The position numbers were made by a program, and so were the translations under genes. A stretch of DNA of 45,735 nt from Nitrospirales bacterium. Its GTDB lineage: Bacteria > Nitrospirota > Nitrospiria > Nitrospirales > UBA8639. Below are positions 12,909 to 16,332 of the stretch, piece by piece (the first letter of the stretch is position 1; each line of letters starts with the position of its first letter). The notes under the pieces are model-generated. The model was given only the letters and a program-made list of their open reading frames with translations, did not search any database and was not told the origin of the DNA. Location of the stretch: positions 1 to 45,735 of the forward strand of contig BQIV01000037.1 in the NCBI GenBank assembly GCA_021604005.1, in the 5' to 3' direction.

Positions 12909-13304
12909 CTACTTCTGCTGCAACCCAAGACCTTTCAGCAACTCCGGGCTCAGGCGCTTGACCGTTCCCTGACTGTTCACGGCCACCAATGTCGCCGATC
13001 CTTCGACCACAACACGATGCGCGTTTCGTTCACGAATGACATGTGAAAACGTCAGTGATATGCGGCGATTGGCCGACAGTCTCGTCTCAACCTGTAGGTC
13101 GTCTCCATATTTGGCAGCCGACTTATAGGCGACCTCTGTATGCGTAACGCGAAACTCCGTTCCTTGTTCAATTAATTCAGCAACAGAATATCCGTGACCC
13201 TCCAAATAATGAGTCCGCGCACGCTCGAAATATTTTAAATAATTCGCATAGTACACCACACCGCCACAGTCAGTATCTTCATAATAAATTCTAATATTCA
13301 TCAA
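12909..13304 (-). CDS. ybgC: YbgC-type acyl-CoA thioesterase (hotdog fold)
   Basis: A 131-aa 4-hydroxybenzoyl-CoA thioesterase-like protein. The opening YYEDTDCGGVVYYANYLKYFERAR carries the conserved catalytic aspartate (D in EDTD) and the YxxYL(K)(Y/F)xERAR motif. YbgC proteins hydrolyse acyl-CoA and are often near tol-pal genes, which are absent here. The start could be the first or second of two adjacent ATGs. It begins 14 bases after the stop of the CARF-type gene, so the two appear to form one transcription unit. Confidence 0.9.
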   Translation of the reverse strand: MMNIRIYYEDTDCGGVVYYANYLKYFERARTHYLEGHGYSVAELIEQGTEFRVTHTEVAYKSAAKYGDDLQVETRLSANRRISLTFSHVIRERNAHRVVVEGSATLVAVNSQGTVKRLSPELLKGLGLQQK

Positions 13305-13318
13305 TAGGACATTCCGTT

Positions 13319-14581
13319 CTACAAGGTCATAGACGGAAACTGCGGGAGGTCGCGCTCCTGGATGTGGGAAACTTTTAATACCATATCGTAGAATTGATGA
13401 AAACGCTCTGCCTTCATCGGCTCAAACCCTTGCCCTAAGATTGCATGATCGGCGGCATCAAGGAGTGTTTTCATTTTTGGCCATTCGGCAAGAAACGTGT
13501 GCCCCATGACGTCGTTTTGCTCAGCCAATACACGAAACTGGACAGGAAATGGAAGTCGATACTTCCCATCCACATCATTCATATAACAACTTCGACAGAT
13601 TGCCTGCATGGCTTGTGGAAGTTGCTCAGGAGTCACGTCCCAACTTTTTATATGATATGCATGAAACAAGCGGACCTGCGCTGATGCAATCAGGGCTCGA
13701 AACACCAGGCGCATGGCGATTTCCGCATCATGTTGTTGTTCGATATGACGCTTCGCATGGGCCAATAAATCAGGGGCTACGGCGCGCTTCACCTCCGCCG
13801 GATCCAATACCATACTTTCGAGGAACCGAATATTCTCTTTCACACTTTTCAGAAAAGACGACATCCCCGGAGGGCCGCCCCAGGCCGAAGCCAAATCAAG
13901 CGCTTTGCTCGCACTTTTGAGTTTTTCCCAAGCCTGCCGATAATGAAATTGTTCCCACTGCCGATACCCTTCGGACATATCCGACAAGGCTCGATACAAC
14001 GGCTTGAGCCTCCCGCTCACTCGAGCTTCAATACGACGAAACATCCTTCCAGCGACGACGTACGATCCTTGATTAAAATAGACTGAAGCTTCCTGGCGAA
14101 TGGAGATGGCCTCTTCATCCCATGGATTACTCTGCATCCAGACCCTTGTCGTTTCTCCCACCTCCATGACCTTCGAATCGGATTGCGCATCAGCACTCGC
14201 CACCCCCAATGTCACAACTTTTGTTGTATAGGGAAATCCAACCAGCATCATCGCTGCGGCCATTGGCGAAGAGGCCATGGTCATGTCAATCACAAGCTCA
14301 CCTGGACTGACGTTCCAAGACTTCAGGATTTTTGGTAATAATTCCGCTAACGTTTTATGCGACTGTGCAAAACTTTCAGGATCAGGCGTAAGAATCCAGT
14401 CCCACTTCTGCGGCATAGTGGAAAGCTGAGGATGGACATCGGATTCCACTAGCTGTGTACTAGATTCCGGGAGAAAAAAACACAATCGCTCTGGAATTAA
14501 GCGTTGAAGCGTACACACAGCTGGCGCAGGGTCCTGCGCTATGGCGATAAGGAGGGCTTTGACTGGCCCGTCGGCACTCAC
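13319..14581 (-). CDS. Orphan CARF-domain protein resembling the TIGR02710 (Cas02710) family
   Basis: A 420-aa protein. The N-terminal half looks like a Rossmann-like CARF domain: repeating hydrophobic strands and VIDMTMASSPMAAAMMLVGF near residues 97-116, the position where TIGR02710 proteins usually have a DxTGGTK loop. Here that loop is changed. The C-terminal half is alpha-helical, with LVFRALIASAQVRLFHAYHI near 292-311, matching the TIGR02710 C-terminal HEPN-like region; Arg304 and His310 could form an RxxxxxH nuclease motif. The family senses cyclic oligonucleotides in type III CRISPR systems, yet no CRISPR array or cas gene is in this window. It sits in an operon with ybgC and divergently from gmhA. 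Family assignment is from pattern recognition and is moderate. Confidence 0.6.
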   Translation of the reverse strand: MSADGPVKALLIAIAQDPAPAVCTLQRLIPERLCFFLPESSTQLVESDVHPQLSTMPQKWDWILTPDPESFAQSHKTLAELLPKILKSWNVSPGELVIDMTMASSPMAAAMMLVGFPYTTKVVTLGVASADAQSDSKVMEVGETTRVWMQSNPWDEEAISIRQEASVYFNQGSYVVAGRMFRRIEARVSGRLKPLYRALSDMSEGYRQWEQFHYRQAWEKLKSASKALDLASAWGGPPGMSSFLKSVKENIRFLESMVLDPAEVKRAVAPDLLAHAKRHIEQQHDAEIAMRLVFRALIASAQVRLFHAYHIKSWDVTPEQLPQAMQAICRSCYMNDVDGKYRLPFPVQFRVLAEQNDVMGHTFLAEWPKMKTLLDAADHAILGQGFEPMKAERFHQFYDMVLKVSHIQERDLPQFPSMTL

Positions 14582-14789: not shown

Positions 14790-15371
14790 ATGGATACACA
14801 GTTCGTGGTAGAAGCCTTCGAGACAAGCGCCGACATCAAACGCCGGTTCGTACACACCTATGCGACACAGATCATCGATGTCGCCCAGGCCATCATTCGC
14901 GCCTTTCACGACAATAGAAAAGTCCTGCTGTTTGGCAACGGCGGTAGTGCAACCGATGCGTCCCATATTGCTGCAGAGTTCGTCGGACGGTATAAGCGTG
15001 ACCGGGCAGCTCTTCCAGCAATGGCCTTGGCTACCGACATGGCCGCACTGACCTGCATCGCGAACGACTACGACTATTCGGATATATTCTCTAGACAAAT
15101 TGAAGCCCATGGGAAAAAAGGCGATGTGGCCATTGCCATCAGCACAAGCGGGAATTCACCGAATGTGCTGCGAGGCGTTCACGTCGCCCGTGAGCGAGGA
15201 CTTCTTACGATTGGCTGGACAGGCCAAACCGGGGGGCAACTCATGGATCTGGTTGACTACAATTTTCAGGTCCCGTCGACCGTGACGGCCCGTATACAAG
15301 AATGTCACATCACTCTGGGCCATGTATTATGTGAAATTATCGAAGAGCGATTATTTGCCCACACGACGTAA
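14790..15371 (+). CDS. gmhA: Phosphoheptose isomerase (sedoheptulose 7-phosphate isomerase)
   Basis: A 193-aa SIS-domain protein that converts sedoheptulose 7-phosphate to glycero-manno-heptose 7-phosphate for LPS core assembly. GNGGSATDASHIAAEF near residues 49-64 and STSGNSPNVL give the sugar-phosphate site, and the C-terminal QECHITLGHVLCEIIE provides conserved Gln and His ligands. Length matches the family. The gene overlaps the next frame and is divergent from the CARF-type gene. Confidence 0.92.
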   Translation: MDTQFVVEAFETSADIKRRFVHTYATQIIDVAQAIIRAFHDNRKVLLFGNGGSATDASHIAAEFVGRYKRDRAALPAMALATDMAALTCIANDYDYSDIFSRQIEAHGKKGDVAIAISTSGNSPNVLRGVHVARERGLLTIGWTGQTGGQLMDLVDYNFQVPSTVTARIQECHITLGHVLCEIIEERLFAHTT

Positions 15372-16332
15372 TCACCCCACAGCTTCAGTCAAACCGCTGA
15401 ATCTCTCCAGGATACAGACGTATCCCCTCTCCTCGCGACACAGCAAGGTCAACATTTCCGATTTTTCTACTTCCTGGCGTCGAGGGAAAAGTTTTAAAAG
15501 TTTTCTCGATACACTCCCCGACTTCCTTGCCGTCAAATCATTTCGCGCCGTGGTTCGAGCCATTGTCCGTGCACGGGAACGGGGAAGGCCCGTGATCCTC
15601 GGCATGGGCGCTCACCCGACAAAGGTCGGATTGAATCCTGTGCTCATTGATTTGATAAAACGGAATATCATCACCGCTGTTGCCGTGAACGGTGCCGTCA
15701 TCATCCACGACTTTGAACTGGCCTACCTTGGCCATACCTCGGAAGAAGTCGATGCTGAAATAAATTCCGGGCGATTTGGCATGGCGGAAGATACGGGACA
15801 TATCTTAAATTCCGCCATCACGGAAGGATGGGAAGCAGGACTCGGAATTGGAGAGGCCGTTGGTCGGTATATCACCACACACCCGGGCAAATTCCCTTTC
15901 CGCCGAATGAGTGTATTGGCAACAGGGGAGCAATTAGGAGTGCCGATCACCGTCCACGTCGCGATGGGAACCGATATCATTCATATGCATCCATCGGCGA
16001 ATGGCGCAGCAATCGGTGGGGGATCGCTCATTGATTTCCGGAAATTGGTTTCCCTCGTCTCTCAGATGGAGGGTGGCGTCTATATCAATCTTGGGTCAGC
16101 CGTCATGCTTCCCGAAGTCTTCCTCAAAACGGTGACGTTAAGCCGCAACCTCGGTCGATCTCTCAAGAACATCACAACGGTCAATATGGACTTTCTCCCT
16201 CACTATCGCCCCATGACGAATGTAGTGCGACGTCCGACGCAAAAAGGAGGACAAGGGTATTCCCTGGTTGGACATCATGAAATTATGGTTCCATTATTAG
16301 CCGCGGCAATTATTGAACAGATCACTCCCTAA
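15322..16332 (+). CDS. Deoxyhypusine synthase-like protein
   Basis: A protein of up to 336 aa resembling bacterial deoxyhypusine synthase-like proteins. Supporting stretches are VILGMGAHPTKVGLNPVLID, NGAVIIHDFELAYLGHTSEEV and the NAD-binding-like region INLGSAVMLPEVFL. Bacteria lack eIF5A, and such homologues may act on polyamines or sugars; the function is unproven. No ATG, GTG or TTG occurs after the gmhA stop before the conserved region begins (about LSRIQTYPL). Translation therefore probably begins inside gmhA, either at the ATG at 15322 or the TTG at 15355, which has GAAGAG upstream. This makes an overlapping, coupled gene pair with gmhA. Confidence 0.75.
   Translation: MYYVKLSKSDYLPTRRNHPTASVKPLNLSRIQTYPLSSRHSKVNISDFSTSWRRGKSFKSFLDTLPDFLAVKSFRAVVRAIVRARERGRPVILGMGAHPTKVGLNPVLIDLIKRNIITAVAVNGAVIIHDFELAYLGHTSEEVDAEINSGRFGMAEDTGHILNSAITEGWEAGLGIGEAVGRYITTHPGKFPFRRMSVLATGEQLGVPITVHVAMGTDIIHMHPSANGAAIGGGSLIDFRKLVSLVSQMEGGVYINLGSAVMLPEVFLKTVTLSRNLGRSLKNITTVNMDFLPHYRPMTNVVRRPTQKGGQGYSLVGHHEIMVPLLAAAIIEQITP

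Follow-up and report, generated by a model that had tools for sequence, protein, structure and literature searches.

CARF-HEPN proteins are familiar as suicide effectors of CRISPR systems, and a gene for such a protein that lies outside any CRISPR locus raises the question of what it does there. We addressed this question for a 45,735-nucleotide stretch of Nitrospirales DNA (the window), in which the initial annotation had described an orphan gene for a CARF/TIGR02710-like protein with a HEPN-like domain, encoded with ybgC and lying opposite gmhA. The gene is a minus-strand open reading frame of 420 codons with a GTG start. The features discussed below are as follows:

12909..13304, minus strand: YbgC/FadM-family acyl-CoA thioesterase (TIGR00051, 94.5 bits, cut-off 68.7)
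13319..14581, minus strand: CARF-6H-HEPN protein of 420 aa, TIGR02710/Csm6 family, predicted to be non-catalytic
13367..13777, minus strand: HEPN domain, residues 269-405 (PF09670, 5.8e-13)
13427..13456, minus strand: lost HEPN active site AADHAILGQG, residues 376-385 (canonical [SA]RNxSxLAHG; from the alignment)
13829..14095, minus strand: 6H helical domain, residues 163-251 (PF22205, 2e-12)
14117..14566, minus strand: CARF domain, residues 6-155 (AlphaFold2 model against the Can2 CARF)
14261..14287, minus strand: altered ligand loop DMTMASSPM, residues 99-107 (canonical DxTGGTKxM; DMTMASSP itself is residues 99-106, 14264-14287)
14790..15371, plus strand: GmhA-like SIS-domain protein, divergent (PF13580, 3.5e-27)
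15322..16332, plus strand: GSU2086-family protein, after the gmhA-like gene (NF052581, 429.3 bits)

Family, fold and gene neighborhood

The protein encoded at 13319-14581 matched the NCBIfam model TIGR02710 with 110.8 bits (cut-off 83.9) and scored above the Pfam gathering thresholds for the Csm6 HEPN domain (PF09670, 49.3 vs. 27) and for Csm6_6H (PF22205, 47.5 vs. 27.6), and the PADLOC model CARF1--CARF_HEPN (PDLC01812) matched it over residues 1-420 at 2e-176. An AlphaFold2 model, built as a single chain from 17 sequences (pLDDT 85.5, pTM 0.74), has the CARF-6H-HEPN fold and domain order of the TIGR02710/Csm6-Csx1 effectors. Thermus Csm6 was the top PDB match of this model both by Foldseek (E 1.6e-12) and by VIA-align (Z 19.6 over 380 residues, with an rmsd of 9.9 that is taken over the entire flexible multi-domain chain). 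When parts of the chain were compared, 123 residues of the CARF domain alone superimposed on the Can2 CARF at 2.2 Å (Z 15.3). Residues 160-408 matched CARF-truncated Csx1-Crn2 over 212 residues at 4.5 Å (Z 9.6). Sequence and structure prediction thus agree that the product belongs to the TIGR02710/Csm6 family and has the CARF-6H-HEPN architecture. The original assignment to CARF and HEPN was borne out by TIGR02710, Pfam, PADLOC and the Csm6-like model, in which both folds are present.

The CARF-HEPN gene is followed after 14 bp by the YbgC-family gene in the same orientation, and its upstream neighbor, the gmhA-like gene, is transcribed divergently, so that the neighborhood described in the initial annotation holds as to position. 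Its gene names hold in part: the "ybgC" product passes the cut-off at the YbgC/FadM subfamily level only, and the "gmhA" product falls under every GmhA equivalog cut-off (best 209.9 vs. 276), which makes GmhA/DiaA-like SIS protein the safer label. Of the 49 loci that we examined, 44 have a co-directional YbgC-family gene downstream, which answers the proposed check on conservation of this pair; the divergent gmhA-like gene is present in 45, and in 43 it is followed by the GSU2086-family gene. The reading frames of these last two genes overlap in the window. The gap between the CARF-HEPN and YbgC-type genes is short in many members of the window's family and a few hundred bases in many other loci, and it is 4.4 kb in one. 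In "Candidatus Nitrospira defluvii," gmhA and the CARF-HEPN gene are separated by genes that by eye encode NfeD-like and SPFH/stomatin-like proteins (L110:9397-10797), and many loci in that organism's family show a gap of ~1.6 kb.

Both a CARF-HEPN and a YbgC-type gene were found in 188 genomes, the former alone in 17, the latter alone in 2, and neither in 29. This co-occurrence is inflated because the genes are adjacent, such that one deletion or assembly gap removes both, and because the genomes share ancestry.

Changes in the HEPN active site and the CARF ligand loop

We next considered whether the residues on which Csm6-type effectors depend are present, using 95 distinct full-length orthologues from the order Nitrospirales for all residue counts. 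Alignment to canonical homologues places the HEPN motif at residues 376-385, which ruled out EQNDVMGH (355-362) as the motif. The R-X4-6-H catalytic motif of the TIGR02710/Csm6-Csx1 effectors is absent from the window's protein, where the catalytic Arg and His positions are occupied by Ala377 and Gln384, respectively, a loss that the initial annotation had missed. Position 377 is Ala in 90 orthologues, Ser in two, Val in two and Thr in one, and Arg in none of the 95. Position 384 is more variable (His in 70, Tyr in 17, Gln in four including the window's protein, Gly in two, Asn in one and Ala in one). Glu298, which corresponds to the residue that keeps hold of the arginine in Thermus Csm6, is retained in 89 of the 95; together with the frequent retention of His384, this indicates that the HEPN pocket has not fully decayed.

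In the CARF domain, the altered loop DMTMASSP to which the initial annotation had drawn attention is indeed present in place of the DxTGGTK cOA-binding loop of Csm6-Csx1 effectors, and it removes the Lys on which Thermus Csm6 depends to bind cA4. Profile alignment equates that residue, K137, with position 105 of the window's protein, which is Pro in 69 orthologues, Ala in 13, Ser in six, Val in six, Thr in one and Lys in none. Asp99 is kept in 94 of the 95, and the loop has a conserved form of its own, D-x-[TS]-x-A-T-P-A-M, with A103 in 87 and M107 in 84 orthologues in addition to the common P105. L150, in which Asp99 is lost, has a further degenerated loop (AWADATPPM), and its genome, G188, carries two Cas10 genes.

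Alanine in place of R415, N416 or H422 leaves Thermus Csm6 without RNase activity (PMC4748810; PMC10897365), and K137A eliminates both cA4 binding and cA4-driven RNA cleavage (PMC10897365). The changes at the R415 and K137 positions would thus make the orthologues the natural equivalent of two loss-of-function mutations. With the catalytic Arg gone, the core protein very probably does not cleave RNA, and the loss of the Lys argues strongly that it lacks the canonical response to cA4. It is nonetheless the case that some HEPN families lack one motif residue and that the activity of such families is uncertain.

A rival explanation is that the protein has stayed a defence RNase and acts as a stand-alone effector with a non-cOA nucleotide activator, in which the remaining His and other polar residues replace Arg. 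Such an enzyme would account for the retention of His384 in most orthologues and of the CARF and HEPN folds in the model. However, Arg377 is lost without exception, His384 is lost in 25 orthologues, among them the window's own, and single mutants at R or H are dead in Thermus Csm6 (PMC4748810; PMC10897365). The distribution of the gene bears on this explanation as well.

Distribution and descent in the Nitrospirales

A CARF-HEPN match is present in approximately 205 of the 236 Nitrospirales genomes, a count that includes at least two genomes (G156 and G158) whose sole match is weak (~2e-19 to 3e-20) and, as both genomes carry Cas10, is probably a CRISPR-type paralogue. The gene is found in 142 of 154 good genomes and in 34 of 37 genera; within the window's family, all 10 genera and 44 of 49 genomes have it. 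Orthologues are usually single-copy at ~50-82% identity and include those of "Ca. Nitrospira defluvii" (FP929003) and of the Nitrospirales MAGs NPIRA01/NPIRA04 (82%). The gene is an order-wide core gene and not a stray orphan, contrary to how it had first been labeled. In one locus (L038:7541-7753), the full gene is followed 1.3 kb downstream by a partial second copy, which comprises the last 71 residues at 55% identity to the window's protein and suggests a duplication remnant.

Likely sources of a nucleotide signal are far rarer. The Cas10 palm domain was found in 11 of the 236 genomes, and a search with the palm model found none in the window's genome, which agrees with the original placement of the gene outside CRISPR, leaves the genome without a sign of the type III system (Cas10) that is a feature of Csm6-Csx1 membership, and led us to reject a co-evolved type III system elsewhere in that genome. 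SMODS domains (CD-NTase) occur in 21 of 236 genomes vs. 205 for the CARF-HEPN gene, which is not the co-occurrence expected of a CBASS-type effector. The search for Cas10 and CdnE genes that had been suggested for the window's genome did return one SMODS nucleotidyltransferase domain (G000:C1:254523-255014), a possible CBASS locus. At these frequencies, neither Cas10 nor SMODS can be the general ligand source; a partner CD-NTase in that role was rejected by its distribution, and a SMODS-type enzyme is unlikely to fill it.

These counts also weigh on the proposal of a defence RNase. While the SMODS nucleotidyltransferase in the window's genome could be cited in its favor, there is no universal signal source, and slow, mainly vertical inheritance as a core gene is atypical for defence genes. 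Taken with the residue changes, we regard a surviving defence RNase as highly unlikely. A second alternative is that the protein soaks up cyclic oligoadenylates or other nucleotides as a non-catalytic buffer or sponge, serving as a safety device in an order whose members sometimes acquire type III systems. The CARF fold and Asp99 are retained, and the core gene occurs together with an active-motif paralogue in four genomes (G016, G017, G153 and G154), as a sponge would allow. Yet the Lys for cA4 binding is absent from every orthologue, and ~95% of the genomes are without a Cas10 palm domain and so would have nothing to buffer; we consider this role most improbable.

We then placed the core proteins among their relatives. 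A phylum-wide search recovered a sister clade in another family (f21; 32-36% identity) and CRISPR-type homologues (22-24%), both of which retain DxTGGTK and RNxSxLAHG, apart from one f21 member with DYTCGTK. Cas10 was present in 12 of the 15 genomes tested that carry f21 or CRISPR-type homologues. Two of these genomes, G016 and G017, each carry an intact CRISPR-type paralogue (L064 and L065) in addition to the core gene. The f21 genes adjoin rho, prfA, murA and hisG; in three of these loci (L134, L135 and L137), an intact-motif gene (DYTGGTKPM, SRNxSxLAHG) lies near these genes with no cas neighbours, and most of the genomes concerned carry Cas10 on other contigs.

In the tree, the core proteins form one clade (100/100 support) with f21 as its sister and the CRISPR-type proteins outside. 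The window's family and the window's genus each form clades within it, as expected of mainly vertical descent, and recent horizontal arrival was rejected on the basis of synteny and of these clades. Across nine core pairs, dN/dS was 0.04-0.14, although several dS values exceed 1 and those ratios are rough. Such strong purifying selection indicates that the 13319-14581 frame is no chance ORF, and pseudogene decay was rejected given the low ratios and the open frames in all full-length orthologues listed. A total of 26 positions, mostly structural, are common to the core, f21 and CRISPR-type groups. At another 54 positions, including W60-D61-W62 in the CARF domain, W234, W314 and W367, the core clade has a residue that is ≥90% fixed and that f21 does not invariantly share; combined with purifying selection, these newly fixed positions are the mark of a new function and not of decay.

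Possible function and comparison with known systems

The explanation that we favor, and judge likely, is that the gene descends from an ancillary RNase of type III CRISPR (Csm6/Csx1 type) and has been domesticated, with a catalytically dead product that would now act as a non-cleaving sensor or scaffold. Domestication out of type III CRISPR is well supported, and the gene has probably been co-opted for a task outside CRISPR. Before the families of the order split, an active CARF-HEPN gene would have lost the HEPN Arg and the cOA-binding Lys and settled between the gmhA-like and ybgC-type genes; from then on it would have passed down mainly by vertical descent, as a core gene and without Cas10. 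The protein may still form a Csm6-like dimer, and could act as a non-cleaving switch or scaffold. Its remodelled CARF pocket and HEPN/6H cleft would bind a different small ligand, RNA or protein, and binding would alter the shape of the scaffold and thereby regulate a partner. A nucleic-acid-binding role has been proposed for HEPN domains in which the catalytic residues are missing (PMC3710099). The partner would most plausibly be the co-encoded YbgC-type thioesterase or transcripts of the CARF-HEPN locus; by gene order, the thioesterase would be the best candidate. The envelope or stress role suggested in the initial annotation is a possible reading of the neighboring genes. In its fullest form, which we offer as a tentative possibility, the Nitrospirales, an order of nitrite oxidizers and related bacteria, would have made a housekeeping regulator out of a CRISPR suicide-RNase receptor, in which CARF senses a new non-cOA ligand or protein and the dead HEPN dimer serves as a switchable scaffold that controls the thioesterase and, through it, envelope lipid metabolism.

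Alternatively, the protein may have a housekeeping role that is purely structural or consists in RNA binding, such as one in translation or RNA turnover. It would then sense no ligand and have no functional YbgC link, and the adjacency of its gene to the YbgC-type gene would reflect a shared promoter only. The proposed nucleic-acid binding of HEPN domains that lack catalytic residues (PMC3710099) would suit such a protein, as would the position of its most conserved 30-residue block by column entropies (residues 211-240), which is in the 6H domain and not in the CARF pocket, and the finding of the CARF-HEPN and YbgC-type genes on different contigs in G228 and G231. The conserved form of the CARF loop and the newly fixed sites in the CARF domain, in contrast, suggest that this domain still does something, and we think a purely structural role unlikely.

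If the domesticated scaffold that we favor is correct, a core, non-catalytic CARF-HEPN protein maintained throughout an order would be a clear case of an immune protein exapted for housekeeping, and it would raise the question of what CARF domains sense besides cyclic oligoadenylates. "CRISPR-associated CARF protein" labels and defence-gene catalogues count this probable non-defence gene in nearly every Nitrospira genome, and such catalogues would mislead here if taken as evidence for type III signalling. We found no description of the core, motif-less clade, with its order-wide status and conserved locus, in the literature searched, a body that did not extend to the 2020 CARF classification.

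Among known systems, Thermus thermophilus Csm6 (PDB 5fsh and 8jh1) is the closest in structure, sharing the CARF-6H-HEPN architecture over the whole chain, whereas the window's protein is without residues equivalent to R415 and K137 and lies outside a type III locus. TIGR02710 and PDLC01812 describe the same sequence family, the latter matching the "Ca. N. defluvii" orthologue end to end at 1.5e-251, so that databases already class these proteins as CARF_HEPN; the model name, however, implies a CRISPR-associated effector. By evolution, the core protein is a TIGR02710 member, while by function it departs from three defining features of that family. The f21 clade (L134-L139) has the same architecture and is the sister in the tree, but unlike the core proteins it keeps DYTGGTKPM (DYTCGTKPM in one member) and SRNxSxLAHG, with Cas10 in four of five genomes. 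Every CARF family includes members unlinked to CRISPR (PMC4012209). RtcR likewise has a divergent CARF domain outside CRISPR, one that responds to a signal other than oligoadenylates and exerts control through protein-protein contact (PMC9650030). Its output is a sigma-54 AAA+ and an HTH domain, neither of which a Pfam search found fused to the CARF domain of the 13319-14581 protein, in which the output is instead 6H-HEPN.
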